NCBI GenBank assembly: GCA_001247695.2
Contig: LGRX02034701.1
Span: 1-64,000, forward strand
Origin: Cymbomonas tetramitiformis
Lineage: Eukaryota; Chlorophyta; Pyramimonadophyceae; Pyramimonadales; Pyramimonadaceae
Reading direction: 5' to 3'
Length of the DNA: 64,000 nt
The first letter of the stretch is position 1. The number at the start of each line of letters is the position of its first letter. The notes beneath the pieces are model-generated. The model had not been told where the DNA came from. It saw only the letters and a list, made by a program, of their open reading frames with translations, and ran no database searches. Of this stretch, positions 3,725 to 52,113 are shown in pieces. The position numbers and the translations under genes were made by a program.

Positions 3725-3741
3725 TGTGTGCAAAGCCGGAG

Positions 3742-6800: not shown

Positions 6801-8380
6801 TCACCGGGAGGCGGAGATGCGGAACATGATGCCGTCCCAGCTCGAGGCCCCGAGCAGCTCGGACCCTCCCTGCCGGATTGGGGTAAAGAGATCCCTGCTC
6901 CTGGGCAGGATCACCACCTCGTCGGCCATGGCCTCCAGCTGCTGGAGCCACATCTGCCCCGGCCAGTAGGGCGCCACTACCGTAGCGGCGCACCCTTCCT
7001 CCCGCAGCTTGTGCGCGACCTCGTCGAGGAGGGACCACGGGGGGTTGACCCAATTGACCTCTCCTAGCCAGGAAAAGGCCAAAGAGTCCATGCCCTCGCA
7101 CCCCGGGTCGTGCCACTGTGCGTAGTAGCGCGGCAGCTGGGCGGAGAGCTCCGAGGCGAAGCGGTCCACTGTGTGCCGGTGCCACTCCCGCTCTGTCCAC
7201 TAAAACCACGTACGGTTCAGCCGCCAGTCGTCGAGGTCCTTGTCCCGGGACAAGCAGTCGGCCCACTTGTTTGCCTCGCTTCTGATGTATCTCGCCTGTA
7301 GCTCGATGTTGTTTAAGTCCAGCAGGATCCACAGGCGCCGCATCCGCCGCATCAGCTCCGGGTTGCGCGACGTGAAGTGAGAGAGCACTGTTAGCTGCAC
7401 AGTGCGCTGAACGGCGTGATGTGTGTATCGGGGGCGGCGCGCAGGAGACCTCCCCACCACCTCCGAGAAAGGAAAGAGCGAGGAATGCATTTGCTGATTG
7501 ATGGACCATACTCGCCAAAGCGTGTCTCAGGGTTTCTTAGGTGGTGGTGTGGGACCATCATCACCACAGTGGATTCCATAGGGGTCCCGCCTGGTTGTCG
7601 CAGTAGAGGCGTACCACCTTGCCGGTGAGCTCTCTCAGGAAGGATTGCACCGTCTTGTACACGGCCTCCAACCTGAGTCTCACCAAGACCCGAGATGTCA
7701 GCTCGCGCGCCCTGAGAGCCTCGATCCTGCTGCTTAGCAGCAGCAGGAAGTCGTCCATGTAGGGGAGCACCCGCGCCCCTTGCTGATGCTCCTCGCAGCC
7801 GCATCCTCCAGCTCGCCTGCGAACTGCCCATCGCCGTCGCACCTTGCTTCCACTTTGCAGCTTCCGCACTTCTCACCGATCCTCCGCGGATCGTGGAGAA
7901 CGCAGGCACTCCACGAGCACCTTCATGACCTTGACGAAGATGCAAGGCGAGTCGTTCCAGTCGAATGGAAGAGCGCCGCACTGGAATAACTCCCCCCGCA
8001 CATCGAACTGCATGTACTCGTGGAAGGCGGGGTCGATCCCCACGACGTGGTAGCCGTCCTGGAATCGAAGCTGATGCACCCATCGTTGGGCTTGGCGAGC
8101 CGTTGCAGTTTCTTGAGCGTCTCCATCTTGCAGCGGGACTTGACGCAATGTGAGTTCAACCAGCGGAAGTCCATCACAAGACGTCACTTGTTCGTCCCCG
8201 GCTTCGGCACCAGGAACACTCGGGATACGTGTCGTCGCCTCCTCGCTCGTACCCATGCGCCCGTTTTGAGACACCGCTCGGTCTCTGCGGCCATCCACTC
8301 CAGCTGCGGAGGGGTGGCGTCGCCCAACGGCACTCCGTGATTGAAAGGCAAAGCGCCTTGTCGACCCAGCGCATCCTTGC
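6801..8380 (-). pseudogene. RT - RNase H - methyltransferase-like ORF, broken
   Basis: Pieces in several frames line up with the intact ORF2 of YR copy 1. Fingers: HVSRVFLVPKPGTNK and DFRWLNSHCVK (about 8230-8120). Palm: LPYMDDFLLLL (about 7770). RNase H: VVRLYCDNQ, then SHFTSRNPELMRRMRRLW and YIRSEANKWADCLSRD (about 7600-7220). Methyltransferase-like: MDRFASELSAQLPRYYAQWH and VNWVNPPWSLLDEVAHKLRE (7169-6801). Frameshifts near 8060, 7870, 7570 and 7390, and a stop near 7200 after NRTWF, show it is dead. It would have made the cDNA of the element. Confidence 0.88.
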
Positions 8381-9061: not shown

Positions 9062-9063
9062 AC

Positions 9064-9565
9064 TGAATGGCATGAGATCAGCCGACAAAAGCCAGCCCAC
9101 CATCATCCCAGTGGATGTGAGAAGCAAATCAGGAGCAGGGCGGGGCCGTGACAAGATACCCCCAACTCATACATATTCCCAACCCACATGCCAAGCAGCA
9201 TGGAAAGATGATACGATGTGACCGATCATCGCCCAACAATAGTTGGTCCCAGGGTTACGGGGTAATCGGACCCTGCTGGCATGCCCCCCAGTGGCTCACG
9301 GTCGATGGATGGGACCCGTTGGTCCATGGTTATGCCATGAATGCAGTCACACCACACAGCATGGACACCCCATGGTAAAAAATGAAACCATGCGGGCACC
9401 TAAGTGCTCCCCACAAAAATCAAGGGAAAACACGGAACGCGGACTTCACCACCCTCTGCCTCTCCTTGCAGCAAAGGCGGACGAATCCACCGAGCCCTCC
9501 AAGAGGCAGAGCCCTCCAGAATGGCACCACAGGGACAACCGCCTCCCAAAACCCACTTCCATCCG
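9064..9565. mobile_element. Short interspersed repeat R1, copy a (502 bp)
   Basis: It starts TGAATGGCATGAGATC and ends CCACTTCCATCCG. It is nearly the same length and sequence as the 501-bp insertion at 15607-16107. Two partial copies lie at 18880-18953 and 19510-19739. I see no long ORF and no terminal A-run. Target duplications elsewhere (12 and 18 bp) suggest movement by a non-LTR-type mechanism. No convincing Pol III A/B box pair is visible, so SINE status is unproven. Confidence 0.7.
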
Positions 9566-9615: not shown

Positions 9616-10039
9616 TGTTAGAATTCGAGAGTCTGTTTTCACAAAAGCGAGCGTAAACTTTCATTCTCAAAAGATATACCAGTTCCCAGCTTGAAACGCC
9701 ACGAACTTTAGCGCCCAATCATTATTGATTGGGCAGTCTAAGTGAAAGTTCACTAAACAGATTCCTACGTGTTACTGTCGTGTTCATACCGACCGCAATG
9801 ACACGCCTGAGTACCGGCCTACGATCAAAATGTGGGCCGATGAACTTATTACGCACTTGCCGATGGTTTTCAATGATCTAACGGCCACGATTAGTTCAAC
9901 AGATCTGCAGATCTAGATCTAAGGGTTTCTTAGGGTTCCTTCAGGGTTTCTTTAGGGTTTGAGCATCCTGACGCCCACACGAGGCCTAGACAGTCATACT
10001 TTACACCAAACTAATCAGCAGGCACTGCACATTCCAATA
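9616..10039 (-). repeat. 3' LTR of Copia-1
   Basis: It begins TGTTAGAATTCGAG and ends ATTCCAATA on the plus strand, and matches 17137-17560 at about 97 percent over 424 bp. On the minus strand it contains four telo-box-like AAACCCT/GAACCCT motifs in a row (9920-9960). Confidence 0.95.
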
Positions 10040-10047
10040 CCCCTTCT
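10040..10047 (-). other. Likely polypurine tract of Copia-1
   Basis: On the minus strand AGAAGGGG directly precedes the 3' LTR (which starts TATTGGAATG). This is the expected place for the plus-strand primer of reverse transcription. Confidence 0.6.
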
Positions 10048-10094: not shown

Positions 10095-11690
10095 TCAGTT
10101 TGTCACACCCAGTTTTAGGGATGGTGCCCCTCCAGCTCCAGTGATATGGGGATGGTGCCCCTTCAGTCCCCAGTCTTCAAAGTTGGAGTTCCGCAACTTC
10201 ATGATACCTAGCCTTTCCCTGTGTGTAAGGAATGTTGGTAGAGGAAGAGGTTTGGTGAAGTTGTCAGCTGTGTTGTCTGCTGAGGCGACATACAGGGCTT
10301 CCACCATCTTGGACTTCACCAGTTCTCGGATGTACATGTTCCTCACCTCAATGTGCTTGGATCTGTTGTTGTTGACATAGACTGAGGCCAAATGAATGGC
10401 CCCTTGGTTGTCACGATACATTTGCACCGGGGTGCAGATGTCCACCAGGTCGGTCAGCACGTTGATGATGTACTTGACCTCCCTAGCCCCTTCAGACATG
10501 GCGATGATCTCAGCCTCGGTAGTTGACAGCGACACACATCTCTGCATGATGGAGAAGATCAGTAGGCTGCCACATAGGTAGACCGCAATGCCAGACGTGG
10601 ATCTCCTCGTGGTTTTGCACCCAGCATAATCAGCGTCAGTGTATATGCATAGCGGTAGTGCTCCACTGGCCAGACCCAGCCCCCTTGGCACAGAGGAGGT
10701 TGTCCGCAACACCAGCTCGTGGCCCACAGTGCCCTTAAGGTATCTGACAACCTGCTTCAGAGCCACAAAGTGCTCTGGGCCATAAGATGCACAAAAACGA
10801 GAGAGAGCCGACACAGCAGCCATGATGTTAGGGCGCGTGCACCTTGCAACCCACTGTAGCTGCCCAAGTAGTCCCCTGAATGGAATGGTGGTATCCTTAC
10901 CATCAGATGGGGCAAGAGAGCACCCGGGAGACATACGCAGGCTCGCCGGCTTAGCATCCTGAAGTCCATAGGTCTCAATCATCAGAGAGATATATCCAGA
11001 CTGAGACAGATATGCCACCCCAGGGCCCCAGCGCACACCGATGCCCATCACAAGATCCAGCACACCCAAGTCCTTGCAGGCATACTGGGAGTTGAAGGCC
11101 GCCACAAAGCTATCATACCATGAACGGCTGTTGGTGGCCACAAGGTAGTCATCCACATATGCCAATATGATGACTGTGATGCCAGAGTCTCGGATGTAGT
11201 AGAGGCAAGGCTCAACATCACTGCGCCTCATCCTCTCATCATAGCCCATAATGAAGGCATCACTGGTCTCAAACCACTCCTTGCCCGCTTGCTTCAGGCC
11301 ATACACTGCCTTGAGCAGCTTGGCACATGTCCTGCCCTGATATTCCAGCCCCCTAGGGAGCTTGACATACAGGTCCTCCTCCAGGGTCGAGTTCAGGAAG
11401 GCTGTCTCCACATCCATGTGATACACCTCGAGGGCAAGGTTGAGCGCCAGAATAATAACCAGCCTCACTGAAGATAACTGTGTGCACGGGGCAAAGGTGT
11501 CAAAATAATCGACACCATACTCCTGCTTGTTGCCCTTCACACACACCCTCGCCTTGCGCTTCTGCAACTGCCGGTGCTTGTCCAGCTTGACCTTCAATAC
11601 CAAGGACATGTCCAATAGACGTACACCAGGAGGAACATCCTCCATATCCATCATCAGCAGAGCCTTCTTGACTGCAACCTGCTCGGAGAC
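10095..11690 (-). pseudogene. pol: Copia-1 reverse transcriptase and RNase H
   Basis: The frame opens with EQVAVKKALLMMDMEDVPPG, the usual start of the copia RT domain. It continues with YHMDVETAFLNSTLEEDLYV, KAVYGLKQAGKEWFE and the catalytic LAYVDDYLVAT (about 11143-11163). RNase H follows: CIYTDADYAGCKTTRRSTSG, VSLSTTEAEIIAMSEGAREV, YRDNQGAIHLA and the terminal ADNTADNFTKPLPLPTF. It is in a different frame from the upstream ORF; the shift lies near 11690, so the polyprotein cannot be read through without frameshifting. The domain itself has no internal stop and may have been active until recently. Confidence 0.92.
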
Positions 11691-14600
11691 TCACCCAGCA
11701 TGTCCCATCCGATGCTTGCACCTTTAGTACTGCCAGATTCTCGTCAATGTCGTCAGGTAGATAGACCCCAACATCAAGGACACCGTCCTCCAGTCCACCC
11801 GGGAGAATATCATGATATGTACCATCCAACGCCGTCACCATGAAGTTGGTACTCAGCGGGGCCACTGCAGAGGGATCCCAGGTGGTGACCACCTTGCCCA
11901 GCTTGTCCACAGCCTCATGGAACTTGACCATTCCGGACTTGACTATCTTTCCCGACTCAGGATCATACAACAAGTAGGCTGATGAGACCTCAGAGTGACC
12001 AACATACCTCAGCTGCCGCGCTCGGTCACTGAGCTTGTGCTCCCTTCTGTCCGGGTCCACAAAAGCATACGCCAAACATCCAAACACTCGAAGATGTGAG
12101 AGGTCCCGGTGCCGCCCATACAGCTTGTAATAAGGGGACCTCTTGTGCAAGGACTTCTTGAATGTTCTGTTCAGAATGTACACAGAGTGACGAACAGCAA
12201 GTGGCCACATGTCCACACCAAAGCCAGATGTCAAGAGCAGCGCCCGAGCCATAGCCTGCACTATCCTATGAGACCTCTCCATACAAACCTGGTTCTCATG
12301 AAGGTATGGCGATCCATGGCGTTGCTCAATACCTTGGTCTTTGCAGTACTTTTGCGTCTGCCCAACAATCATCGTAGAATCCCCATCAGTGTGCAGTACC
12401 ATATGATACTTCTCATCAAGTCCCATACGGCTCCTGTGCTGCCTCACCTCCGCTAGGAACTTCTCAAGGGCCGCCAGGTAGTCCGACTTCTTCCTGATGA
12501 AGTACACACATATCCATGTTGTACAGTCATCCACGAAGAGGATAAACCACCGGTAACCACCAGCACTGTGCCTGAATGGGCCACACGTGTCAGACCATAC
12601 CAGCAAGCCAATCTCTGCAAAACTCTCCCTGCCAATAGGCTTCATAGACGGCCTGATCGCCTTGGTGAGCCTGCAGGAAATACATCTCTCAGGGCAGCGC
12701 CCCACCAAACTCTTGGTATACTGCGCCATGGTAATACCCATGGGGATCTCCTCGTCCAGCATCTCCTGCATGGTCACGTCACCAATATGGCCAAGTCGAA
12801 TATGTGCCAGCATCTTGGCATCAAGCTTCACCACTGTATGCCCATCCTTGTAGATCACCACCACAGGCCACTTGGTCTCCCTGACCCATACCCGGCTCTC
12901 CCCACACATCTCCAGGTTCTCCACATTGTAGCATGAGTCCAATGGAGCTGAGAATATCTTCTCCCCAGCAGGGTACTCATGAACAATGGCAAACTGAGAT
13001 ACAAACTGCCACCAACTGGCAGTCTCCCATCTGGGTAGCACCAAAAAGAACTTGGTGGACTGAGGCACCCGAGCAAAGTCACTCAGAGCCTTCTGCAGAC
13101 ACCTCAGGATGATGTCATGCTCATAAGGTGGGTTGCCATAGCATGCTTTACCCGCCCAGTCCCTGCCGAAGCAAGGGTTCTCAGTCGTGCAATAATCGTC
13201 CAAGACGTGGTTGTCAACGGAGGCAAACAACTCCAGAGTAAAGGGCCCATGCTCCTCAATGTGCTTCCCGGCTTCCTCAAACTTCCAGTCTGTCTTGTCC
13301 CGATCGAAGTCATCGTGGTATGCTGCACAGGCCATGTAGGTATCCAAAGCGCCAGTCTGATCTTCATATATGATATACTGGTTGCCAACTCTAGAAAATG
13401 AGAAGGTCATCCCCACACTGGATATCTGCCTTGCCCCAAAATCAACACTGAACCCAGCATCCTCAAGCGCCACCACAGACACCAGGTTGAACGGCTGTCC
13501 AAGAATGCAGTGAGCACCAGTGAACTGCAGCCCAATAGCGCGCCCAGTGGACACATCCAGCTTGGCAAAGGTGACCGTCACACTGCCATCCGAGGACACA
13601 GTACCGGCCTGCACCACACTGAAAGTGGAACTAGAAGCAGGATCAAAGTCACCGCCAAAGTCACTCACCAGATTGAATATGTGCTTGGTGGCCCCACTGT
13701 CTATCACTGCCACCTTCCCACTGAATGCAGTCAATGGCAGGGCCCTGGTGAAGATGTCAGCCGTGTTGTCTGTCGATGCAACATACAAGGCGAGAGAGCT
13801 GCCAACAGGGTGGCCCCCATGTAGCCCACACGCATCCTCATCACCGGAGTCACTCCCATCTTCAAGATCAGGTACATCACAATACCAATCAGAAGAGCAG
13901 CAATCTCCCATCCCAGAATGCACCCCCAAAGCCACAGAACAGAGGCGGTTCTTGTGAGGCGGGCAGAATAGTCCAGATGCCCAATCATCGGAGGGGATGC
14001 CACCCACTCCTTCAAAGGGCTGCCCAAAGTACACATCCTCTTCCTCGTCCGAGTCAGAGGCATCTTCCAGATCCGGCAGAGTATCTGAATCATAATCACC
14101 ATCATCTGAGTCAGAGTCCGAAGCCGAATCCAGGTCGGGGATGGAGCAATCAGAGTCGTCACAAACATGGCCACCACCATCATCTGATCCACAGAGATAG
14201 ATAAGATCAGGCATATAGCTGTGTCTAGGCGTGTGATAAGACCAGGCATCCCGGTCTGCAACAACCTGATCATCACCAGGGGAACCCAGTGCAGCCATAA
14301 ATCCAGAACCACCTCGGTCTGAAGAGACATCACCATGATCAGAAGAATCTCCAGAGTTATAGCCACTCTGGTCTGAATGATCACCACCATCAGAGGAGTA
14401 GCCAGAGCCCCACTCATCCTCAAAATCATATCCCAGCAGTGCCCAGAAGCTCTCGACCACCTGCACAGTGGCTCGAGTAACCATACTGAGTAAAGTCACC
14501 CATGACTGCAGCCTCTCAAAGGATCCTCGCACCATACTCGGTTCCTTCTCGAGCAGGCGCTGCAGCAGACCATATTGCTCGGCCACCATATGCTTGGCAC

Positions 14601-15606: not shown

Positions 15607-16107
15607 TGAACGGCATGAGATCGGCCAACAAAAGCCAGCCCATCATCATCCCAGTGGATGTGAAAAGCAAATCAAGAGCAGGGCGGGGCCGTGACAAGAT
15701 ACCACAAACGCATACATATTCCCAACCCAAATGCAAAGCAGCATGGAAAGATGATACGATGTGACCGATCGTCACCAAACAACTGTTGGTCTCTGGGTTA
15801 CGGAGTAAGCGGACCCTGCTGGCATGCCCCCCAGTGGCTCCCGGTCGATGGATGGGACCTGTTGGTCCATGGTTATGTCATGAATGCAGTCACACCACAC
15901 AGCATGGACACCCCATGTCAAAAAAAGGAAACATGCGGGCACCTAAGTGCTCCCCACAAAATTCAAGGGAAAACACGGAAGGTGTACTTCACCACCTTCT
16001 GCCTCTCCTCGCAGCACGACAGACGAATCTGCCGAGCTCTCCAAGAGGCAGTGCCCGCCAGAATGGCACCACAGGGATAACCGCCTCCCAAAACCCACTT
16101 CCACCCG
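15607..16107. mobile_element. Short interspersed repeat R1, copy b (501 bp) inside Copia-1 gag
   Basis: Inserted between codons for VYIR of gag. The 12-bp sequence GCGAATATACAC is present on both sides (15595-15606 and 16108-16119) but was single in the reconstructed gag reading, so it is a target-site duplication. The ends are TGAACGGCATGAG and CCACTTCCACCCG, which defines the element exactly. Confidence 0.88.
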
Positions 16108-17007
16108 GCGAATATACACATACGCCGGGTTCAAGGAGTTCAGCACCATGGCCACAAATACGGCCTCCAGGCTGGCGACATGAAACATTTCACCATCCGG
16201 CAGGAATTTGCTCGTGCATGCATACTCCTCCACCCTGTCAAGAACCTCCCTCGCATTTAGAAAGCCTTGTAGCGGGGGCGCGAGCGTCATGAACCTCTTC
16301 GTGTCGTCAAGCAAAGCCTTGACCTGCCGCACAAAGTACGCGGAGCCCGTGCTCCGACGCATTTTAATTAGCTGTCGCCAGGCCGAGACACCGTCTGCTT
16401 CAGTACTGTACGATCGAACAACTGCGTTCGCTGTCCTGGTGGTAACACGCGACAGAAAGTCATGAAATAACTGGTTGGCTGCCACCGAGAACTTCTCGTC
16501 CTTCTTGATGTCCTCTAACTCGCGCGTGTCCGTCAATAACAGCGACAACGCCGGGTGACGCAGAGACGGTACAATTTTACCTCGGAATTCCATCCACTTG
16601 CTGTCATTTTCAGCCTCCTGACCAGAATAGAGCTGGTCAGTCGGGAACCCCTTCAACATATCCGTTAGAAAAGGTAAAGGTACGTCCACAGTACCACTCG
16701 CAACTCGAGATTTACCACTGGAACCAGACATGCTGGATTCCGCGGCCTCAGGACACGCAATAGCATTTCCCGTCCCCGCATTTTGATTCGCAACAGCCAA
16801 CGGCGGCACTGCGTGTGCCAGGGCTTGAACCATTTTAAAAAGCTCATTCATACGCGCGTCTTGCTGCGTAAATAGCTGTTGCTGCCTCTCATCAATACGC
16901 GCCTCTTGCTGCGCGAAAAGATTAGCCAGCGCTGCAGAGTCCCCCCCTGCTGAGATTCCATCAGGCTTCTGCCTCCTCCGAAGGTTCGCCAAAAGCAGAT
17001 TCCTCAC
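16108..17007 (-). pseudogene. gag: Copia-1 gag, N-terminal part
   Basis: The frame starts MRNLLLANLRRRQKPDGIS and runs through a Gln/Glu-rich, probably coiled segment (EARIDERQQQLFTQQDARMN). A capsid-like region includes FPTDQLYSGQEAENDSKWME, VRSYSTEADGVSAWRQL and LNSLNPAYVYIR. After VYIR the reading enters R1. The rest of gag resumes at 15594 with TMFSGDELPSFKTLND and the zinc knuckle. The structural protein is therefore split by the insertion and not functional here. Confidence 0.85.
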
Positions 17008-17136: not shown

Positions 17137-17560
17137 TGTTAGAATTCGAGAGTCTGTTTTCACAAAAGCGAGCGTAAACTTTCATTCTCAAAAGATATAC
17201 CAGTTCGCAGCTTGAAACGCCGCGAACTTCAGCGCCCAGTCATTATTGATTGGGCAGTCTAAGTGAAAGTTCACTAAACAGATTCCTACGTGTCACTGTC
17301 GTGTTCATACCGACCGCAGTGACACGCCTGAGTACCGGCCCACGATCAGAATGTGGGCCGATGAACTTATTACGCACTTGCCGATGGTTTTCAATGATCT
17401 AACGGCCACGATTAGTTCAGCAGATCTGCAGATCTAGATCTAAGGGTTTCTTAGGGTTCCTTCAGGGTTTCTTTAGGGTTTGAGCATCCTGACTGCCACA
17501 CAAGGCCTAGACAGTCATACTTTACACCAAACTAATCAGCAGGCACTGCAGATTCCAATA
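17137..17560 (-). repeat. 5' LTR of Copia-1
   Basis: The same 424 bp as 9616-10039. Telo-box-like repeats lie at 17441-17481. The outer end is ATTCCAATA, followed by flank CAAAG. This LTR should contain the promoter; no clear TATA box was assigned. Confidence 0.95.
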
Positions 17561-18861
17561 CAAAGAACACGAGTCCCCCGGCACGTGTAATAACCATGAA
17601 GCACTGGACACGGAGAGGGAGCAAGCGTCAGATGAATGGACAGGGCATGGGAGGACGCGTTCGAGGAGACAGACTATGCCACGCAGGATGGACTTGGTGG
17701 TGGGACGCAGGAATCTGGGGGAACGCAGCATGAGCAGTCTGGGCAGGCTTCCGGTGGGGCAGGCGAGGTGGGGCAATCAAGTGTCGAGGATATCTTGGCG
17801 GAGTGGGAGGACCTTTCGTCGCCGGGCCTGGAGGGTGGGGTCTGGACTCGGGAGCATAGTGGGGCCTCACCGGAGCAAGCAATGGCCTTGGCTGAGGGAG
17901 GGGTGGCCACCTTGATGAGAGCGAGCAGGCGGGTGGCCGGCCTTCTTGGGGGTGTTGTTGGCATGGGGGGAGCTGTTGAGGGTGACGGGGGAGATGTGGG
18001 GAGGCTCGCGGGTAGAGTTGAGACATGCCGGGCCCCTCAGAGCCCGGGGGCCCATCCCGGCAGCGATGACCACTTACAACAGGTTGCACGGCAGCATACG
18101 GCATCTCATCAGCTTCTGTGCCCATGGGGCGAGGTTGCTGGCCGTGCCGGAACTAACAGTGAGCAGCTGTCAGGAAAAGGCGACAACCGGATGGTGAACT
18201 ATCGGCCACTGGGAGGGCTTGGGACGCATGGGCAACTGTGGGGATGGGACCCCAAGTAGGAACAGTGCGGCACGACAGTTGTAGGGCAAGTATGGAGCGC
18301 ATTGCTCAAGTTCGCGCCAACCTCACAAGGCATTCAGTGCAAGGGCTTCAGTCACGTGGAGTTGGTGCTGGGGGTAGAGGGCTACAGGCGCAAGTCGGTG
18401 GCGGGGGCGCAGGTTTGGATGAGGGCGGCCCTGTTTATCATTCTCAGCCCCTTGGGACCAGCCCTTGGGGATTCTGGCCGTGGCGTGGGTGGGCAAGTTC
18501 TCTTGAGACCAGGCTCTAGGGCGTGTAGGGGGCAGAGGGGTGGTCTCGAGTGTGGGCTTGGTGGTGAAGGGGTGGCTCGATTGGCGGAGGTGAGCCGGCA
18601 GAGCAGGCGCAGAGGGGCTCAGGTGGCCCAGTGAGGCTCAGGGAGCAGAGGGGCGGTCCTGCGCCAGCAGTGCGCTGGCGTTGCGGATGCAGATGGGCTC
18701 GGGTGGCTCAGGGAGGCTTAGGGGGTCCCATTCTTCACGAGGGAGCTCCGGAGAATCCGGATGAGTGTCCCGGACATCTCATGCGTGCTGAATCCTTTGA
18801 TCCCCGGCGTGGGTACATAGTGCAGCCGGTCTTCTGCGGCTACGGGGTGCCAAAGGAGTCG
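17561..18861 (+). other. G-rich spacer with an uncertain 207-codon ORF
   Basis: An open frame at 17636-18259 is rich in Gly, Glu and Ser. It begins MDRAWEDAFEETDYATQD and has a possible linker-like composition but no recognised domain. Further overlapping G-rich frames follow up to 18873. The high G content makes long frames likely by chance. I cannot tell whether this is part of a host gene or of another degraded element. Confidence 0.2.
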
Positions 18862-27899: not shown

Positions 27900-27929
27900 G
27901 ATCGGGACAATTAGATGGTTTGCCCGGTG

Positions 27930-28377
27930 AGATGGTCGGAGTTGGGTCAAGAGTTCGGGCCCTTCACGGTGGACTCGTGCGTGGCGGAGTCCAGGGCGAA
28001 CTCCTACTGCTACCTTAGCAGGAGCAGGGTGGAGGATGCGCGGGTTCAGAAATTCGACGGCCACAACGCTTGGGGGAACCTGCCCTTCAGCATCATGTTG
28101 GCCATCCTCGAGAACTTCCTGAAGTGCAAGCGTAAGCAGCACTGGGGCACAACGGCATGCTTCCTGGTGCCGGTGTGGGACGGCAACGAGGGCTAGGAGC
28201 TCGTGAAGAGCCTCCCTCACGTGTTCAAGGTGGTGCGCGGGTGGGCGAAGGGCACGCACCTGTTCACGGCCCAAGACCTGCGGGGGCATGGCAGGACCGC
28301 CAGGGGCCCCACTAGGTGGCCGGTGGTGGTAGTGCGGGTGGGGCCAAAGCCCGTGGCCCTCCCTGACTGGGCGTGAG
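27930..28377 (+). pseudogene. Methyltransferase-like domain of the divergent YR element
   Basis: The frame reads FGPFTVDSCVAESRANSYCY, then AWGNLPFSIMLAILENFL, TACFLVPVW and, after a TAG stop at about 28195, LVKSLPHVFKVVRGWAKGT. It corresponds to the GPYTVDRFAS...NPPW domain of the other YR elements, but the motif is NLPF, with Leu in place of the first Pro. That substitution may abolish any methyltransferase chemistry. Confidence 0.65.
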
Positions 28378-28383
28378 GGTTGG

Positions 28384-29919: not shown

Positions 29920-30082
29920 TGTTCAAATTGGAGTGCAACAGAATTTTTGTGGTTTCAGACTTTCAGAATCCGTGACTCCTGCTGCAGTAGAGCCGAATGA
30001 CACATGTAGCACCGTGACACAAACAGGATGTACAAGTAGCCACGAAGCGACACGCCTGTTCAGCTCTGTTCCTTTTGCTCTT
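29920..30082 (+). repeat. A1 repeat of YR copy 1
   Basis: 163 bp from TGTTCAAATTGGAG to CCTTTTGCTCTT, nearly identical to A2 at 34849-35011 and to the A1/A2 of copy 2. Short open frames across it are shared by every copy and are not genes. Confidence 0.92.
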
Positions 30083-30342
30083 GCAAACAGGAACTTCACG
30101 GGTACCTACGGTACTCTGTGAGGCACACTGCAAATCCGATTTTGTAATTTTCTTCACCTGTTTCACCGGTAAAACAGTAGAGTAGGTAGTGACTAGACCA
30201 CTTGGTTGTACGACGGCGATCGAACGACGACAGGAGATCTGACAGAGAAGTCGCGGGGACGGCGTTACGACTTCAAACGACGGCTTCACAGCGGCTACGA
30301 CAGTACGATTGACTTCACTGTTACTCCTCTGAGGGAGAGAGA

Positions 30343-31347
30343 ATGGCTGGTTCTTCGAAGGGCAAGTCTACAGAGGATTTCCCTCCCCTCCCGGGGAAGC
30401 CAGACATCGGGCAGGCTTCCCCTTCCCCGGCAGCACCGTCCACTCAGGACGTGCTGTTACAACAAATTCTGACGATGCAAAAGCAGCAAGGGGAGCTGCT
30501 TGAGATGCAGAAGCAGCAGGCAGAGGATCATCGACTGCTGCGTGCTGAGCTTCAACGTCAAGCACAAATCAACGTTGAGCTGGAGGCGATGGTGGCAGCG
30601 AAGCCTGGGACTTCTGACCCGGAATCCGCAGCCAAGACCGCCGAGCAACTTCTGGAGAGAAGGAAGAAGCTGGACTACGTGCCAGCAGCCTCCGTCAACC
30701 CGTTCCCACCGCGGCCGGCGACACTGACAACGAGGATGCCGCAGTTGTACGACCTGCACGGCAGCAAGACGTACGACGCGCTCTCCAAGAAGTCCAACTC
30801 TTCGATGAAGTACGAGTGCATGGTTCTGGCTCCAGCGCTGTCTTACTTGCACGACGTGGTGAACGCGTGCAACCAGACGTTGGACGTGAACGAAGACTCC
30901 GGATTGACGCTGAGAGAATGGCAGAGACACTTCCACGAGGTTACCAACTCGGTCCACGGCGTGTACGCGTTGCTTTGCAACCGTTGGACGATGCTGGAAC
31001 TGCGCGGGCAGCTGGAGCAGGAGCCTGGTTCTTCGCAGCGTGGAGGATCAGACGCTCTACGCGCAAAGCTGCAGTTCGTGGAGGACAGGGTCTACCAGGC
31101 AGCGGACGGCGTGGTGGCGGACGAGGTGTTGCAGCAATGGCTGAACGACTTCGACAAGAACCGCGGCAGGGCGATGCTGAACCTTACGTCGAAGAACGCA
31201 GCGAGCGCGGAAACGCGGGTTGTAAAAGATCCACGGGACCGCGACCGCTGGAAGGAGCGTAAGAACAAGGAGAAGGACGGTACGAAGCAGCCTACCGACA
31301 AAGGCGGCGGCAAGGGCCGGGGCGGAAAGCCCGCGGCCGATGCGTGA
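30343..31347 (+). CDS. Gag of YR copy 1, intact
   Basis: 334 codons. The start MAGSSKGKSTEDFPPLPGKP is shared with copy 2. Residues about 45-80 form a Gln/Glu/Leu-rich coiled coil (LLEMQKQQAEDHRLLRAELQ). The central part reads RMPQLYDLHGSKTYDALSKK, LVNACNQT-like and LLCNRWTMLELRGQLEQE. The C-terminus is basic (RDRDRWKERKNKEKDG, GGGKGRGGK) and suits nucleic-acid binding, but there is no cysteine knuckle. It should form the particle or RNP of the element. The stop codon overlaps the next ATG in TGATG, which suggests stop-restart translation of ORF2. Confidence 0.85.
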   Translation: MAGSSKGKSTEDFPPLPGKPDIGQASPSPAAPSTQDVLLQQILTMQKQQGELLEMQKQQAEDHRLLRAELQRQAQINVELEAMVAAKPGTSDPESAAKTAEQLLERRKKLDYVPAASVNPFPPRPATLTTRMPQLYDLHGSKTYDALSKKSNSSMKYECMVLAPALSYLHDVVNACNQTLDVNEDSGLTLREWQRHFHEVTNSVHGVYALLCNRWTMLELRGQLEQEPGSSQRGGSDALRAKLQFVEDRVYQAADGVVADEVLQQWLNDFDKNRGRAMLNLTSKNAASAETRVVKDPRDRDRWKERKNKEKDGTKQPTDKGGGKGRGGKPAADA

Positions 31348-33410
31348 TGTGCGTGCCGCCACCCCGTCCAGCGCAACAGCCCTCTCCGGGCGCTGGACGG
31401 GGGAAACTCACCGTGCAACAGCAGGTGAGACAGCGGAGGGGAGCATGGCGCGCGGCGGGCGCCAGTTCCGAGGTGATGCAATGGATTACTCACGGGGTGA
31501 AGTTGAGGTGGAAGCGCAAGCCTCCGCCTCCGTTCGACCACGGGGTGTCACTGAGGGATGCTACGCGGCAGCAGCAGGTGTGGCTGGACGCGGAGAAGGA
31601 GAGGCTGCTGGAGAACGGTGCCTGGACGAGAGCGACGAGAAGATCTCACGTTTCTCGCGCTTTTTTAGTGCCAAAACCGGGTACGAACAAGTGGAGACTG
31701 GTGGTGGACTTCCGATGGCTGAACCAGTGGTGTGTAAAAAATCGTGTGAAGATGGAGACGCTGAAGAAACTAAGGAGACTGGCGAAACCGGGCGACTGGT
31801 GCTTCAGCTTCGACCTCCAGGACGGTTTTCACGCGCTGGGAATCCACCCGGACTTTCAACGGTTCATGCAGTTCGACCTGCAAGGGGACCTGCTTCAATG
31901 TTCAGCGATGCCGTTCGGATGGAGCGACGCTCCGAGAGTTTTCTGCAAGTTCGTACACGTGATGGTGGAGGCTTTGCGTTCTCCACAGGCAGCAGAAGAT
32001 CGCAGAGAAATCAAGAGACTGCGGGACGGTTCCGCAGTACGACAGCGATGGTCAGTCCGTCGTTGGACCGGTGGTGCTGGCGGGGACGCGAACCGTCACA
32101 GCGGAATGCGAGTACTACCGTACATGGACGATTTTCTGGTGCTGGTCGGCTCTCAGCGAGAAGGCTTTCTGCGTCGAGAAAAAGTTCAACTGGTGCTTCA
32201 TCGACTTGGCCTACGGCGGAACGAGAAGAAGGGCCACTGGGAGCCTACGCAGGTGGTGGAGCACCTCGGGCTGGAGGTGGACCTGAAGCTGGGACAATTC
32301 CGTGTGACAGAACGACGGGTGCACAAAATCCACACCAAGGCGAAGGAGATCCTGTGCGACGCAGCGAGAAATCGGAGGTGGATTCCTGCCAGGAGACTGG
32401 CGTCCTTCACGGGACTCTGCCAATCCGTGTACTTGGCAGTACCAGCGGCGCGGCTCTACCTACGGGAGCTCTACTTCGTGCTGGCGGAGAAACGCAGCTG
32501 GGGAGCGAAGGTAAAAATCTCACGTTCAGCTCGGGGGGACTTAGAATGGTGGTCCAGGCTGCCTGTGATGAGCAGGTGGAACGGGCGCAAGATCTGGAGA
32601 TCCCCGACGAGAGCGAAGGTGCACACGGACTCTTCGATGACGGCCTGGGGAGGAGTGCTGAACCTGAAGTTTCCCGCGCGAGGTTTCTGGCCAGACGAGA
32701 TGCGCTGCTGGCACATTACACACCTGGAGCTGGAGGCCGTGTACAAGACCGTACAGGCGTTCCTGCAGGAGCTGGAGGGCAAGGTCGTACGGCTCTACTG
32801 CGACAACCAGGCGGTGGTGGCGATGCTGTCACACTTCACCTCCAGGAACCCGGACCTGATGAGGAGAATGAGGAGACTCTGGCTGCTACTGGATCTGCAC
32901 AACATCGAGTTGCAGGCTCGGTACATCCGCAGCGAGGCCAACGTGTGGGCCGACAACCTTTCGCGTTGCGAGGATTTGGACGACTGGCGGCTGAATCGGG
33001 ACTGGTTCGTGTGGGCCAACAAGCAGTGGGGGCCCTACACAGTCGACCGGTTCGCTTCCGAGATCTCCGCGCAGCTTCCTCGGTACTACGCTGCGTGGAA
33101 AGACCCGAAGTGCGAAGGTGTGGACTCTCTGACGTACGACTGGCGGGGGGAGAACAATTGGGTGAACCCCCCGTGGGCGCTGCTGGACGAGGTGGCGCAC
33201 AAGCTGCGGGAGGAGGGGGCCGCTGCTACGGTGGTGGCTCCGTACTGGCCGGGACAGTCCTGGTTCAGAGAGCTGGAAGCCCTGGCCACCGAGGTGGTGA
33301 TCATGCCACGGCGCAGGGACCTGTTCACTCCGAGCAGGCTGGGAGGGTCCGAGCTGCTCGGGCCCTCGAAATGGGACGCTGTGATGTTCTTCATCGAGGC
33401 GCGCCCGTGA
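31347..33410 (+). CDS. ORF2 of YR copy 1: RT, RNase H, methyltransferase-like
   Basis: 687 codons, uninterrupted. RT (about residues 60-330): SRAFLVPKPGTNKWRLVVDF, CFSFDLQDGFHALGIHPDFQ, PFGWSDAPRVFCKFV and catalytic LPYMDDFLVLVGS near residue 258. RNase H (about 440-550): AWGGVL, LELEAVYKTVQAFL, VRLYCDNQAVVAML, YIRSEANVWADNLSR. The methyltransferase-like domain (about 560-687) has GPYTVDRFASEISAQLPRYY, NNWVNPPWALLDEV and VVAPYWPGQSWF. The start codon overlaps the gag stop. The terminal TGA overlaps the recombinase frame (CCGTGAGTTACTAC), so the next protein may be made by a -1 shift or restart. All catalytic RT residues are present. Confidence 0.92.
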   Translation: MCVPPPRPAQQPSPGAGRGKLTVQQQVRQRRGAWRAAGASSEVMQWITHGVKLRWKRKPPPPFDHGVSLRDATRQQQVWLDAEKERLLENGAWTRATRRSHVSRAFLVPKPGTNKWRLVVDFRWLNQWCVKNRVKMETLKKLRRLAKPGDWCFSFDLQDGFHALGIHPDFQRFMQFDLQGDLLQCSAMPFGWSDAPRVFCKFVHVMVEALRSPQAAEDRREIKRLRDGSAVRQRWSVRRWTGGAGGDANRHSGMRVLPYMDDFLVLVGSQREGFLRREKVQLVLHRLGLRRNEKKGHWEPTQVVEHLGLEVDLKLGQFRVTERRVHKIHTKAKEILCDAARNRRWIPARRLASFTGLCQSVYLAVPAARLYLRELYFVLAEKRSWGAKVKISRSARGDLEWWSRLPVMSRWNGRKIWRSPTRAKVHTDSSMTAWGGVLNLKFPARGFWPDEMRCWHITHLELEAVYKTVQAFLQELEGKVVRLYCDNQAVVAMLSHFTSRNPDLMRRMRRLWLLLDLHNIELQARYIRSEANVWADNLSRCEDLDDWRLNRDWFVWANKQWGPYTVDRFASEISAQLPRYYAAWKDPKCEGVDSLTYDWRGENNWVNPPWALLDEVAHKLREEGAAATVVAPYWPGQSWFRELEALATEVVIMPRRRDLFTPSRLGGSELLGPSKWDAVMFFIEARP

Positions 33411-34769
33411 GTTACTACGCTGTTGAAGTACGAAGAAGCTCTGCTACGAGTACGACAGCAAGCAAGGTGACCGTGGGTACGAGTATTGAGGTGTTCTGGA
33501 AGGACGATGACTGCTTCTACCCGGGTGTGGTGAAGGAGTTCAACGAGGACGGGAAGGCGCACGTGCTGTACGACGACGGCGACGAGGAGACGCTAGACTT
33601 GTCCGAAGAGAACTTCAAAATCATCAACAGCACGGACGAGACAACAGACGCGGACGGCGAGAACACCGAGCGGAGCAGCGGAGGCAACTACGAAGAGTAC
33701 AAGCGCGGTGGTGCTGTACAAAATTTCCTCACGCACTCACTTTGTGAGCGGTGGAGGGGTGAGTTGGGACCTTCCCGGCTCACCGAACTGGCGGTGTCGA
33801 TGCAGCAAAAGGCACTGCTGGACACGACGAAGGACAACTACGGACCGAAGGCACGGCGATTCATTTTATTTTGTGAGCGTGACCAACGGCCGTGGCTGCC
33901 AGCGTCGGAGGCGACTGTGTTGCTGTACATCGCCTCTCTGTTGGAGGACGGGAACATCCAGTCGGCATCCTTACAGCCGTACCTGTCCGCCATCAACAAC
34001 TACCACGAGGACCTTGGTTTCTCTGGACCAGCGAAGGGGCGCTCTGTGACCCGAGCTGTGAAGGGGATGGCGACCATCCAGGCGGAGCTGGCCGTGCAGG
34101 AGGAGAACATCGAGACCCAGCGGACGTGGCTGCCAGCAGCACACGTACGACGGGTGCACGAAGAGCGCTGAAGTTAATCCGAGATCGCCTGAGGAGCTGC
34201 AGCTACTGCGAGCCTTTACCTACGTGGTTGTGGCCTTCGTGACCTTCGGCAGACCGGACACGGGGACCTCGTTGTCACGGCAGCACGTTCATTGTGGCGA
34301 CGATGAGTTCTCAGTGGTGCTACTGAAGGAGAAGGGACGGCGACACCATCGAGTGAAGCGACGCCTTACAATCCCCTGGAAGGGGGTGGCTCTGTTGAAG
34401 GAGCTGATCGAGCACTGGGAGTTCTACCGTGACACAGCTTGGAGCATTTCTGAGAAGACTCAACCTGACGCCTACTGGCTGCTACCCGAGGACCCGAAGA
34501 ACTTCAAGGCTTCCGTGGCAAATGACTGGATTGGTCTAGCTCTCAGCGAGCTGGACTGCAGACCTCCTGAAGGAGGTCACTTTTCTGCACACAGCACCCG
34601 GAAGGGTGCCACGACGTGTGCTCGAGCTGTGGGTGTTACAATGGAGAAAGTGTGCTTCCTGGGAGGCTGGTCACAGTTCTCTTCGGCAGTGCAACACTAC
34701 ATCGACCCGACAGCTCTGAGGGACACAGACATGGACTACTACTTCGCTTGGTTAACATGGTCACAGTGA
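33410..34769 (+). pseudogene. ORF3 of YR copy 1: Tudor-like module and tyrosine recombinase, frameshifted
   Basis: The Tudor-like module (about 33460-33630) reads IEVFWKDDDCFYPGVVKEFN and YDDGDEETLDLSEENFKII. The recombinase core follows: RKALLDTTMSNYG-like, INNYHEDLGFSGPAKGRSVT. Compared with copy 2, single-base losses near 34156 and 34172 put a TGA after HVRRVHEER and shift the frame. The rest (34224-34769) continues with FVTFGRPDTGTSLS, PEGGHFSAHSTRKGAT (HxxR), FLGGWSQFSSAVQHYIDP (Tyr) and ends WSQ. There is no ATG at the start of the frame; ORF2 runs into it. Confidence 0.88.
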
Positions 34770-34818
34770 CAGAGATCAGATTTCTTGTGTGTGCCTCACA
34801 GTTTCATCTTTGGTTTCA

Positions 34819-35204
34819 TGGCAAATGAGGATTCGAGCAAAAGAGAAATGTTCAAATTGGAGTGCAACAGAATTTTTGTGGTTTCAGACTTTCAGAATCC
34901 GTGACTCCTGCTGCAGTAGAGCCGAATGACACATGTAGCTCCGTGACACAAACAGGATGTACAAGTAGCCACGAAGCGACACGCCTGTTCAGCTCTGTTC
35001 CTTTTGCTCTTCCCACCGCTCCCGACCCAGAGGACTCTTTCCTTTTGGTGACGTGCACAGACAGTCTGGACATCTCATCAAAAACATGAATTTAGAAAGC
35101 ATGTAAAAAGCACAAAATGCATTTTAAACACTTTACAAAATCATTTTAATGAAATGTATTGCAGTGCCTGCCTTTGGCAAATGAGGATTCGAGCAAAAGA
35201 GAAA
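34819..35204 (+). repeat. B1-A2-B2 right end of YR copy 1
   Basis: B1 34819-34848 and B2 35175-35204 are both TGGCAAATGAGGATTCGAGC plus AAAAGAGAAA. A2 34849-35011 repeats A1. The B1/A2 junction (GAGAAA|TGTTCAAA) equals the end-to-start junction expected in a circular cDNA. Confidence 0.92.
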
Positions 35205-36237: not shown

Positions 36238-38240
36238 ATGGCTGGTGACGGTGAGGTCAGATATCCAACCCGGGAGTCACAGCTTCAGGAACTGATAGAT
36301 AAACAGACAGTAATGATGGAGAACATGGCACAGGCACTGAGGGCAAGCAACGAGGCTATGAAACTGAATGCAGAGAGGCGGGAGTCTGGGAAATCTAAGG
36401 ATCATGAAGGGACTAGGTCAGGTTTGACAAGCCTGGATAATGCACCAAAAACAGTGCAGTGTGTTGTAAAGTTGTTGGGCACAGTGAAATACACGGGTTC
36501 TGAGAGAAACAGGTATGAATCATGGGTGCAATTCAAAACACAGCTTGAGTCAGCAGTGCATTTTAACCCTGACCTGTTAGAGCTGAAACGAGAGGGTCAA
36601 GTGTCAGATATAGCTGATATTAAAGGACTCAGCTCATTTAAGAAGAAATCAGTGAAGGAAGAGACATCGACTGCAGAAGGGCCTTCATCACAGGCAGAGG
36701 AGGGAGACAATGACGGCAATGACGGTGAGGACAGAGAATCGGTGGACGGTTTGAGCTTCATTGCGGTACCTGGCTCTGGAAGTGTGGCAAGTGAGGTTCT
36801 GTCAGCAATTTTGAAACAGGTCACGGTTGGTGACGCCTTTGATGTTGTACGGAGGTGTGGCAATGACGGGTTGAAGGCGTACAGAAAATTGCGCTGCAGG
36901 GTGGAGTCGCAGTTGTTTGGACATCTGGCGTGCTCAATGAAGAAGTTGTGTAAACTGACTGTGAACGCGACGGAGGACCCTGTGAAACAGTTGGGATATT
37001 ATGTTGACGTGATGAGTTCTATTGTGAGCTACGGAGGTGCGAGACTGGACTCTACGACTGTGGAAGTTCTAGTGACTGCGCTGGCTGTGGCGCCTATGCC
37101 GGTGGAGTATGCTCAGGTGGTTGCGGACTTGAGCAAGGAGCGAAGGCCTTCGCTGGATATATTGGTGCAGAGGACAGCGCATTTTTATGTGAACGTGGTA
37201 CAGCAATCGCTGGTTCCGTTATCGGGAATCGTGGGGGGGACTGTTGACGAGGAGACTGTTGCTGTGGCGAGGGCTCTGGTTGCGGATAGAAGTAGGCAGA
37301 ATGAGGAGAAGAAGTTCAATGACGGGAGAAAGCTTGTTTGTCCTACGTGCTCGGGTATGCACTCTGCGGAGAAGTGCTGGATAGTGAATCTGGCAGGTAA
37401 GCAGGAGTTCATCAAGTTGAATCCAATAAAAGAGAAGGCTGTACGGGAGAACTATGCGCGGAGACTGAAGAAAATTGTGGCTAAGAAGACACCTGAGGCG
37501 GCAGTAGCTGCGACTGTGCTGGGGGCGATTGCGAAGAGTACGACAAGGCAACGACGGACGGAGGTGTCGGCGGAGGAGCTTTGGGATATTGAAGATCATG
37601 AAGAAGTTCCGGTGGCCTGTGCGACAGTGGTTACAGTGAGTAATCAGAAGGTAGTGTACACAGGAGAGGTGTTGGCAGACTCGTGGGTGTATGGCGTCTT
37701 CGATCGCGGGGAGAAGGACAAGGAGCTGGTGCAGGAGGAGTATGCTTTGAGAACTCCGGCAGGTGAAACGTGCGCTGCGATGGTGGAGAAGGATGAGGAC
37801 AGGACGCTGTATGTTGATAGTATGGCAACGAAGTCTATTTTCAATGACCTGTCAGTGTTTGAGGGCTCACAGGTGCACGCGTTGGAGGCGTCATCTTTTG
37901 AGGTCATGGCCGGTGAGGTGACAACGTCTCGTGGAGGTGGCTGCGGGACCATTACCTTGTGGAATCGGGTGACGAAGAAGGTGGACGTGTTGCGGGTGGA
38001 GGCGCAGTATGTGCCGGAGTCACCGTTCAATCTGATATCTGCAGTGAGCCTGGAGGACAAGTATGCGTTGTATGCACAACTTGGTGATGGTACGCTGAAG
38101 GACAAGGAAGGTTGGAGCGAGTACGGGGTGATCAGAAGGGGCAAGGTGTATGTGTTACCTGAGGTGAAGGTCGTGGAGGCAGCGCTGCCGGTGGTTGTGG
38201 ACGAGAAGGAGGAGTACGGTCCCATGTGGGACAGGTGTAA
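36238..38240 (+). CDS. gag: Copia-2 gag and protease, cut by YR copy 2
   Basis: The frame opens with MAGDGEVRYPTRESQLQELI and a Glu/Met-rich helix. It continues through a capsid-like part (TVKYTGSERNRYESWVQFKT, KLTVNATEDPVKQLGYYVDV) and a cysteine motif CPTCSGMHSAEKC (CX2CX3HX4C). The protease-like region reads LYVDSMATKSIFNDLS, where the usual DSGA is DSMA, so activity is doubtful. It is followed by VPESPFNLISAVSLEDK. The coding region is uninterrupted for about 667 codons and ends at the insertion point after MWDRC. Reading past 38240 enters the A1 repeat and stops at 38442; those residues are not native. Confidence 0.85.
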
Positions 38241-38403
38241 TGTTCAAATTGGAGTGCAACAGAATTTTTGTGGTTTCAGACTTTCAGAATCCGTGACTCC
38301 TGCTGCAGTAGAGCCGAATGACACATGTAGCTCCGTGACACAAACAGGATGTACAAGTAGCCACGAAGCGACACGCGTGTTCAACTCTGTTCCTTTTGCT
38401 CTT
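38241..38403 (+). repeat. A1 repeat of YR copy 2
   Basis: 163 bp, starting TGTTCAAATTGGAG immediately after the interrupted Copia-2 codon. It differs from copy 1 at very few positions. Confidence 0.92.
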
Positions 38404-38664
38404 GCAAACAGGAACTTCACGGGTACCTACGGTACTCTGTGAGGCACACTGCAAATCCGATTTTTGTAAGATTTTCTTCGCCTGTTTCACCTGTAAACAA
38501 TAGAGTAGGTAGTGACTAGACCACTAGGTTGTACGACGGCGATCGAACGACGACAGGAGATCCGGCAGCGAAGTCGCGGGGACGGCGTTACGACTTCAAA
38601 CGACGGCTTCACATCGGCTACGGCAGTACGATTGACTTCATTGTGACTCCTTTGAGGGAGAGGA

Positions 38665-39665
38665 ATGGCTGGAACTGCGAAGGGCAAGTCTACAGAGGAT
38701 TTCCCTCCCCTCCCGGGGAAGCCAGACATCGGGCAGGCTTCCCCTTCCCCGGCAGCACAGTCCACTCAGGACGTGCTGATGCAACAAATTCTGATCATGC
38801 AGAAGCAGCAAGGGGAGCTGCTTGAGATGCAGAGGCAGCAGGCAGAGGAGCATCGCCTGCTGCGTGATGAGCTACAACGACAAGCACAAATCAACGTGGA
38901 GTTGGAGGCGAAGGTGGCAGCGAAGCCTGGGACTTCTGACCCGGACACCGTAGCCAAGACCGCCGAGCAACTTCTGGAGAGAAGGAGGAAGCTGGCGTAC
39001 GTGCCAGCAGCCTCAATCAACCCGTTCCCGCCGCGGCCGGCTACGCTGACATCGAGAATGCCTCAGTTGTACGACCTGCACGGCAACAAGACGTATGATG
39101 CTCTCTCCAAGAAGTCCAACTCTTCAATGAAGTACGAGTGCCTGGTTCTGGCTCCAGCACTGTCTTATTTGCACGACGTGGTGAGCGAATGCAACGACAC
39201 GTTGGACGTGAACGAGGACTGCGATTTGTCGAACAGCGAGTGGCAGAGACGTTTCCACACAGTTACCAACTCGGTGCACGGCGTGTACGCGTTACTGTGC
39301 AACAGGTGGACGATGCTGGAACTGCGCGGGCAGCTGGAGCAGGAGCCTGGTTCTTCACAACGGGGAGGATCGGACGCTCTACGTGCTAAACTGCAGTTCG
39401 TGGAGGACAGAGTCTACCAGGCAGCAGACGGCGTGGTGGCAGATGAGGTGTTGCAGCAGTGGCTGAACGACTTCGACAAGAACCGCGGCAAGGCGATGCT
39501 GAGCCTTACGTCGAAAAATGCAGCGAACGCGGAAACGCGGGTTGTGAATCCACGGGACCGAGACCAGCGCTGGAAGGACGTAAGAAGTACGAGGAGAAGG
39601 ACGGTAAGAAGCCTACCGAAAAAGGCGGCAAGGGCCGGGGCGGAAAGCCCGCGGCCGATGTGTGA
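38665..39665 (+). pseudogene. Gag of YR copy 2, frameshifted near its end
   Basis: It starts MAGTAKGKSTEDFPPLPGKP and follows the copy 1 gag closely, including the Gln-rich coiled coil and LLCNRWTMLELRGQLEQE. Near 39580 the frame changes relative to copy 1, so the basic C-terminus (KKYEEKDGKKPTEKGG, ending PAADV) is in another frame. The original frame runs on to 40068 through out-of-frame ORF2 sequence. The TGATG stop-start junction with ORF2 is conserved at about 39663. Confidence 0.85.
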
Positions 39666-43100: not shown

Positions 43101-43149
43101 CAGAGATCAGATTTCTTTTGTGTACCTCACAATTTCATCTTTTGTTTCA

Positions 43150-43534
43150 TGGCAAATGAGGATTCGAGCAAAAGAGAAATGTTGAAATTGGAGTGCAACA
43201 GAATTTTTGTGGTTTCGGACTTTCAGAATCCGTGACTCCTGCTGCAGTAGAGCCGAATGACACATGTAGCTCCGTGACACAAACAGGATGTACAAGTAGC
43301 CACGAAGCGACACGCCTGTTCAGCTCTGTTCCTTTTGCTCTTCCCACCGCTCCCGACCCAGAGGACTCTTTCCTTTTGGTGATGTGCACAGACAGTCTGG
43401 ACATCTCATCAAAACTAGAATTTAGAAAGCATTCAAAAAGCACTTTATGCATTTTAAACACTTTACAAAATCTTTTTAATGAAATGTATTGCAGTGCCTG
43501 CCTTTGGCAAATGAGGATTCGAGCAAAAGAGAAA
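43150..43534 (+). repeat. B1-A2-B2 right end of YR copy 2
   Basis: B1 43150-43179 and B2 43505-43534 are identical 30-mers. A2 43180-43342 repeats A1 with a C-to-G change near its start (TGTTGAAATT). The Copia-2 frame resumes at 43535 with CTGGAAGTTC. Confidence 0.93.
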
Positions 43535-52112: not shown

Positions 52113-52113
52113 C

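Follow-up and report, generated by a model that had tools for sequence, protein, structure and literature searches.

Structure of the Copia-1 element

The window analyzed here is the whole stretch of 64,000 nucleotides from Cymbomonas tetramitiformis (GenBank assembly GCA_001247695.2, contig LGRX02034701.1, positions 1 to 64,000 of the forward strand). It carries two copia retrotransposons, Copia-1 and Copia-2, in which a predicted Dam-type adenine methyltransferase domain lies between protease and integrase, and tyrosine recombinase (YR) elements, which have a related domain after RNase H. Copia-1 is located on the minus strand between two long terminal repeats (LTRs) of 425 bp, which were 96.9% identical in the window self-comparison. 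Its features are as follows.

17137..17561, minus strand: 5' LTR, paired with 9616-10040
15943..17007, minus strand: putative N-terminal part of gag, an open frame assigned by its position between the 5' LTR and P0001
11500..15606, minus strand: long open frame P0001, 1368 residues, with gag C-terminal part, protease, methyltransferase, GAG-pre-integrase, integrase and SH3
13693..13713, minus strand: protease-like VAVIDSG, upstream of the methyltransferase (VIDSG from residue 632 of P0001), matching the Copia-2 protease region
12817..13329, minus strand: methyltransferase domain (residues 760-930 of P0001), assigned by Pfam Dam, TIGR01712 and predicted fold
13123..13134, minus strand: NPPY motif in the translated frame
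12661..12825, minus strand: GAG-pre-integrase (zinc region, HIRLGH; residues 928-982), directly downstream of the methyltransferase; PF13976 at 15.6 bits, below the cut-off of 28.4
12304..12591, minus strand: integrase core (residues 1006-1101); PF00665 E 3.9e-6, 27.5 bits, below the cut-off of 32.6
11911..12120, minus strand: SH3-like domain after the integrase (residues 1163-1232); PF25597 E 7.2e-21
10095..11654, minus strand: reverse transcriptase of Ty1/copia type in the next frame; PF07727 E 6.8e-44, followed by RNase H as judged by eye
9616..10040, minus strand: 3' LTR, paired with 17137-17561

The DSG motif, PF00665 (below cut-off), PF25597 and PF07727 follow one another in the Ty1/copia (Pseudoviridae) order, and the LTRs and the DDE-type integrase likewise identify Copia-1 as a Ty1/copia element. 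Just inside its 5' LTR, the sequence GGTTATGGGCCCA (17124-17136, minus strand) resembles the half-tRNA initiator-Met primer site known from Drosophila copia.

Two further observations were made on the element. A short repeat family was found at 15602-15827, 9059-9284, 18875-18952 and 19508-19734 (copies mostly 90-95% identical), and one copy apparently interrupts the Copia-1 gag. Just before the protease, at 13723-13791, a stretch of 23 residues (ALYVASTDNTADIFTRALPLTAF) was 74% identical to the end of the reverse transcriptase-RNase H frame of the same element, and looks as if it had been copied by template switching.

Identification of the methyltransferase domain

A preliminary description of this DNA had placed a methyltransferase-like domain of Copia-1 at 12840-13297. 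The place was right, and the frame was not: read in that frame the segment contains several stops, and the in-frame domain extends over about 12817-13329 of the minus strand. The profile comparison proposed there gave similarities above chance. With Pfam Dam (PF05869, cut-off 28.1 bits), the Copia-1 domain scored 41.7 bits as a piece (E 1.3e-10) and 37 bits within the whole P0001 frame (residues 784-870, E 3.6e-9), both above the cut-off. The domain of the YR element copy YR-A2 scored 30.1 bits as a piece (E 4.7e-7) and 26.1 bits in its whole frame, and those of Copia-2 (21.9 bits, E 1.5e-4), YR-A3 (15.8 bits) and YR-B (16.2 bits) were below the cut-off. The bacterial and phage model of NCBI, TIGR01712, matched Copia-1 (E 9.7e-9, 35.0 bits), Copia-2 (4.4e-4, 19.8 bits) and YR-A2 (0.0032, 17.0 bits). 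None of the three reached its equivalog cut-off of 97.05 bits, and the domains are thus homologous to this family, not equivalogs. PHROG 111 (DNA methyltransferase) matched the same three (E 1.2e-7, 0.0088 and 4.7e-11, respectively). When the Copia-1 domain was compared with phages by tblastn, 106 records were retrieved with weak single E-values; among the matches listed, 27 of 40 were annotated as methylase or methyltransferase. The best plasmid match (2e-5) was itself a Pfam Dam.

The first structure model, built with six rows, was poor (mean predicted local distance difference test score, pLDDT, 50.4). The predicted structure of the domain had a Rossmann-like methyltransferase fold, as the preliminary description had anticipated. 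A sequence search of the PDB with the copia domain alone gave 0 matches, and two-row copia and two-row YR profiles gave only implausible PDB matches. By profiles and predicted fold, the copia domain is a predicted Dam-type N6-adenine methyltransferase of the small phage-type family PF05869, and it belongs to the same methyltransferase superfamily as the domain after RNase H of the YR elements.

Reconstruction of Copia-2

The second copy had been reported at 43537-43960. The domain is there (aligned at 43515-43943), and the element is larger than had been recognized, its gag and protease being split off by an inserted YR element.

36238..38240, plus strand: gag and protease, 5' half of Copia-2; 24.5% identical to the C-terminal part of Copia-1 gag (E 1.1e-4) and 34.9% to its protease (E 2.3e-4); Pol_BBD E 0.0042, below cut-off
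38241..43534, plus strand: YR-A2 (YR element copy 2), inserted between protease and methyltransferase; 94% identical to copy 1 over 5.3 kb
43515..43943, plus strand: methyltransferase domain as aligned; its first 20 bases are the YR element end, and the Copia-2 flank resumes at 43535
43879..44385, plus strand: GAG-pre-integrase region, in a frame shifted relative to the methyltransferase
44309..45373, plus strand: C-terminal part of the integrase and SH3; PF25597 E 1.1e-15, PF00665 E 0.0088 (below cut-off)

Methyltransferase, zinc region and integrase of Copia-2 together span 43535-45373. The YR-A2 junctions were fixed by the ends of both YR-A copies and by the closing repeat TGGCAAATGAGG..., which is present at 43150-43179 and 43505-43534. 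Joining the short flanks at 38240 and 43535 gave one open frame from the Copia-2 protease through to the methyltransferase, and this frame was lost when the cut was placed one base further on. The methyltransferase domains of Copia-2 and Copia-1 were 40.6% identical over 138 residues (E 2.7e-31). The order protease-methyltransferase-integrase is therefore common to two families with an identity of only about 40%, and the reported position of the domain between protease and integrase holds for both, in Copia-2 once YR-A2 is removed. In window self-comparison, no LTRs were found for Copia-2 at the listed threshold. The neighbouring YR element was also considered as the supplier of the Copia-2 domain, and was rejected, because the Copia-2 domain aligns with that of Copia-1 and the YR element carries a separate one after RNase H.

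Conserved motifs and selection

Not all of the motifs by which the domain had first been noticed are present throughout. YR-A1, YR-A2 and the two copia copies all have GPF/GPY and NPP[YW], the latter motif as NPPY in Copia-1 and Copia-2, NPPW in YR and NLPF in the degraded YR-B; NPP was invariant across 38 of 38 aligned rows. FAS is present in Copia-1 and YR-A, and Copia-2 has LCADE instead. Similarly, the VAPYW/VLPRW segment reads VVPYKP in Copia-2. In the third, degraded YR-A relative, the sequence reads WHRHTVDRFAS.

Between Copia-1 and Copia-2, nonsynonymous divergence (dN; Nei-Gojobori script) was 0.587 in the methyltransferase, 0.582 in the integrase, 0.595 in the zinc region and 0.831 in the protease. 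Synonymous divergence (dS) was 1.44 in the methyltransferase and from 2.1 to saturated in the other regions. Given the similar dN values, the methyltransferase domain is about as constrained as the integrase. It looks to have been kept by selection in two diverged families, in line with the preliminary description, which took it to be probably useful.

YR elements of the window

The methyltransferase-bearing YR copies are listed below.

29920..35204: YR-A1 (YR element copy 1), 94% identical to YR-A2 over 5.3 kb
32937..33407, plus strand: methyltransferase domain of YR-A1, 99.4% identical to that of YR-A2
41254..41727, plus strand: methyltransferase domain of YR-A2, after RNase H; Pfam Dam, PHROG 111
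6804..7199, minus strand: methyltransferase domain of the third, degraded YR-A relative, 73% identical to that of YR-A2
27927..28373, plus strand: methyltransferase remnant of YR-B, the second YR lineage, with NLPF and an in-frame stop at 28194-28196

YR-B as a whole is degraded and occupies 25749-29403. Between YR-A1 and YR-A2, dN and dS were 0.003 and 0.095 in the methyltransferase and 0.019 and 0.129 in the reverse transcriptase-RNase H part, so the YR domain is also constrained. In YR-A2, direct repeats are located at 38241-38403 and 43180-43342, together with a second pair at 43150 and 43505, i.e., split direct repeats. The repeat structure of PAT elements, and Ngaro elements without the methyltransferase domain, are described in the available part of PMC3266345. 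With split direct repeats and a methyltransferase, the intact YR elements of the window fit a PAT-like rather than a DIRS1-like description. Weak Tudor/Agenet-like matches, below cut-off, were seen in the YR-A1 and YR-A2 frames.

Origin of the copia domain

The preliminary description called the domain DIRS-type and proposed its capture from a YR element. For comparison, 80 Dam loci of IMG/VR viral contigs were taken from a scan with a six-Dam profile (best 80 of 588); all 80 were used, and the three that were checked are all Pfam Dam. Of these rows, 35 were checked: L022 was dropped (stop), L079 was shortened, and L059, almost a copy of L046, was omitted from A8, in which 33 of the 80 loci are included. 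The alignment, tree and pairwise scores drew on 16 prokaryotic rows that had been picked from Copia-1 or YR-A matches (in the case of L001, from a match of the copia pair); their best scores are therefore inflated. The YR side of the comparison consisted of two lineages of this window.

With the copia profile, the 80 Dams had a median score of 30.5 and the three YR rows scored 19.2, 7.7 and 19.8; the Dams scored at least as high as these rows in 72, 79 and 72 cases out of 80, respectively. This ranking gives no support to the DIRS-type label. In pairwise scores, Copia-1 reached 45.7 bits with the best phage or plasmid Dam (a plasmid one, picked by the Copia-1 search and thus inflated), 12.0 with YR-B and 8.4 with YR-A, and capture from a YR element found no support here either. 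With the all-YR profile, Copia-1 scored 17.4 and Copia-2 25.2, against a Dam median of 16.6 and maximum of 30.9 (at or above Copia-1 in 36/80, Copia-2 in 16/80). With the YR-A profile alone, Copia-1 was equalled or exceeded by 74 of the 80 Dams and Copia-2 by 51. By these scores, the copia domain shows no special tie to the YR domains, and YR profiles place it within the range of viral-contig Dams.

Several results weigh against a separate origin. The hhalign comparison of copia with YR-A was significant (probability 88.5, E 2.7e-6). The YR-B profile alone gave 11.4 for Copia-1 and 8.4 for Copia-2, with only 13/80 and 29/80 Dams at or above them (i.e., the two stand above 67/80 and 51/80 Dams); the copia domains therefore still lean slightly towards YR-B. 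A C-terminal T[KR]WPVVV is common to YR-B and Copia-1, as seen by eye. The tree grouped the five retroelement rows with a support of 85/76 and so neither established nor ruled out a common origin: it was too weak to place the domains (4 of 18 inner branches starred), and neither copia+YR-B (p 0.303) nor YR-A+YR-B (p 0.401) was rejected.

A copia domain taken from a DIRS/PAT-like YR retrotransposon and diverged since then would fit these results, an origin compatible with either function discussed below; the window also contains YR elements with such a domain, of which YR-A2 is inserted in Copia-2 next to the methyltransferase. The copia-profile and YR-A-profile rankings speak against it, and so does the pairwise comparison, in which Copia-1 is nearer to the best Dams than to YR-A or YR-B. 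The fusion points differ as well, being after RNase H in YR and between protease and integrase in copia. Shared descent among retroelements retains some probability. Capture from a YR element is on balance rather unlikely, and a DIRS or PAT source appears no likelier than a separate capture.

Proposed role and alternative explanations

The Dam-type domain forms part of the Gag-Pol of a Ty1/copia lineage, between protease and integrase zinc region. Since it lies inside Gag-Pol directly before the integrase, the enzyme should be packaged in the particle along with integrase and reverse transcriptase. Either fused to the integrase or as a separate product, it would methylate adenines of the new cDNA before integration, and the adenine mark could identify or protect the element's own DNA. 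Adenine methylation of its own cDNA is the role that we infer as the simplest and favour; a similar case for the cytosine methyltransferases of DIRS Pol is put forward in the available part of PMC5890265. With less confidence, a Dam of phage, bacterial or protist-virus type may have been the source, entering the copia lineage independently of the YR elements. Taken as a whole (phage-type Dam domain in copia Gag-Pol, cDNA methylation in the particle, self-mark or protection, separate entry), this is considered the best explanation, with a probability of about 0.55. A wider formulation is put forward only tentatively: that the Ty1/copia lineage, independently of DIRS/PAT, captured a phage- or protist-virus-type adenine methyltransferase, which in the virus-like particle would methylate the element's own nucleic acid (cDNA or perhaps, in the manner of PCIF1, the RNA cap), thereby marking it as self or shielding it from the host.

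The domain could instead be catalytically dead and serve as a nucleic-acid-binding or chromatin-targeting module of the integrase, since it directly precedes the integrase zinc region in both families and several of its motif positions vary (FAS to CAD, PRW to PYK). Both copies have an intact NPPY although their overall identity is only 41%, and NPP is invariant in all 38 rows; because NPPY has been kept in both copies, a dead DNA-binding role is disfavoured, and we consider it improbable.

Methylation of RNA, e.g., of the cap-adjacent adenosine of the element transcript as by PCIF1, with an origin from a PCIF1-like or giant-virus enzyme, would explain some of the structural results. PCIF1 chains were the top six PDB structure matches of the predicted model by both Foldseek and VIA-align, and human PCIF1 came first when the retroelement profile was compared with the PDB (E 0.058, aligned at NPPF). 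Pfam PCIF1_WW was a weak second match in Copia-1 and Copia-2 (0.006 and 0.021; none in YR-A2), and NPP[YF] is 24 residues from the next strand in both the copia domain and PCIF1, as counted by eye. The PCIF1_WW scores of 16.6 and 14.9 bits were below the cut-off of 31.1 bits, and the Copia-1 sequence is much nearer to Dam (41.7 versus 16.6 bits). With a PCIF1 fragment, Copia-1 and Copia-2 scored 6.8 and 5.4 bits, their own shuffled copies at most 3.2 and 2.7; the 6.8 bits are barely above the 6.6 reached by shuffled copies of another row. Since the listed PDB matches included no small phage-type Dam, PCIF1 could simply be the nearest relative with a solved structure. An RNA substrate is about as doubtful as a dead module.

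Chance resemblance of motifs or an assembly artefact is very hard to credit: the motifs first noticed are short, and Copia-2 has only some of them, but three profile libraries agree (Pfam, TIGR01712/NCBI, PHROG), and the domain lies in frame in an open reading frame of 1368 residues and in the same place in a second, diverged family.

Other features of the window

A long tandem array, in which open frames of the two strands overlap, extends over 868-3726; offsets in the self-alignment put its period at about 44 bp. Direct repeats of 242 bp, 100% identical and about 2.1 kb apart, are located at 52113-52354 and 54411-54652 and are possibly the LTRs of a small young element. An 84-bp near-perfect palindrome (97.6%) lies at 60952-61035. 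The tRNA and Rfam searches of the window gave no match.

Comparison with known systems

By titles and abstract starts in the open-access literature (most subscription journals being outside this scope), no copia element with an adenine methyltransferase was reported among the matches listed, in line with the preliminary description, which knew of no earlier account of this arrangement. Viral-contig scans with the methyltransferase plus integrase part of Copia-1, with YR-A, with the reverse transcriptase and with the integrase returned none, and the scan with the copia pair returned one Dam-like protein, L001 (L002 is the same contig). Genome-contig scans returned none, and no third copia element with the domain was found in the viral or prokaryotic collections; these collections being viral or prokaryotic, its absence is no evidence of rarity.

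With the phage-type N6-adenine methyltransferases (PF05869, TIGR01712), also labelled "T1 type", the copia domain has a common core: a W near the start, GPF, an acidic [DE] followed by [FC]A, an N, the W of DWxG (in Copia-1; L in Copia-2), NPPY, a strand that ends close to a proline, W[WF], GxxxF and a final hydrophobic strand. Unlike these free proteins, it is part of a retrotransposon polyprotein, lacks the TP of WxTP, has a longer segment before the final strand and scores below the TIGR01712 cut-off. PCIF1/CAPAM is a much larger protein (467-494 residues in solved chains).

The DIRS methyltransferase domain is described with PF05869 in the available part of PMC3783388, and its function as unknown in that of PMC3266345. 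The DIRS/PAT enzymes belong to the same superfamily, are also located in a retroelement Pol and are also under selection (YR-A). They differ in lying after RNase H of a tyrosine recombinase element and in having NPPW, whereas the copia domain lies between the protease and the DDE-type integrase of an LTR element; they are not clearly closer to it than viral-contig Dams are. That another class of retrotransposons has retained a related domain, elsewhere in Pol and constrained like the integrase, suggests that methylation of its own nucleic acid may solve a problem common to retroelements, and the copia element offers an LTR system for testing that role.

The predicted N4-cytosine or N6-adenine methyltransferase of the Ectocarpus Sola1 transposon is likewise carried by a transposable element, but Sola1 is a DNA transposon and its methyltransferase is a separate opposite-strand gene with a ParB-like domain (as far as described in the available part of PMC12477816). 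Cytosine methyltransferases are carried by LINE (long interspersed nuclear element), DIRS-like and Gypsy retrotransposons of Symbiodinium and Klebsormidium, and the Symbiodinium copia elements are stated to lack a DNA methyltransferase (DNMT) domain in the part of PMC5890265 that was available. As in the copia elements here, a DNA methyltransferase was captured, into Pol in the DIRS-like and Gypsy elements, and purifying selection is stated for the Klebsormidium retroelement; unlike the copia domain, these enzymes are of the cytosine type and are stated to be structurally unrelated to Dam (same source). If its acquisition was separate, the copia domain would represent convergence on adenine methylation, beside the known recurrent capture of cytosine methyltransferases.
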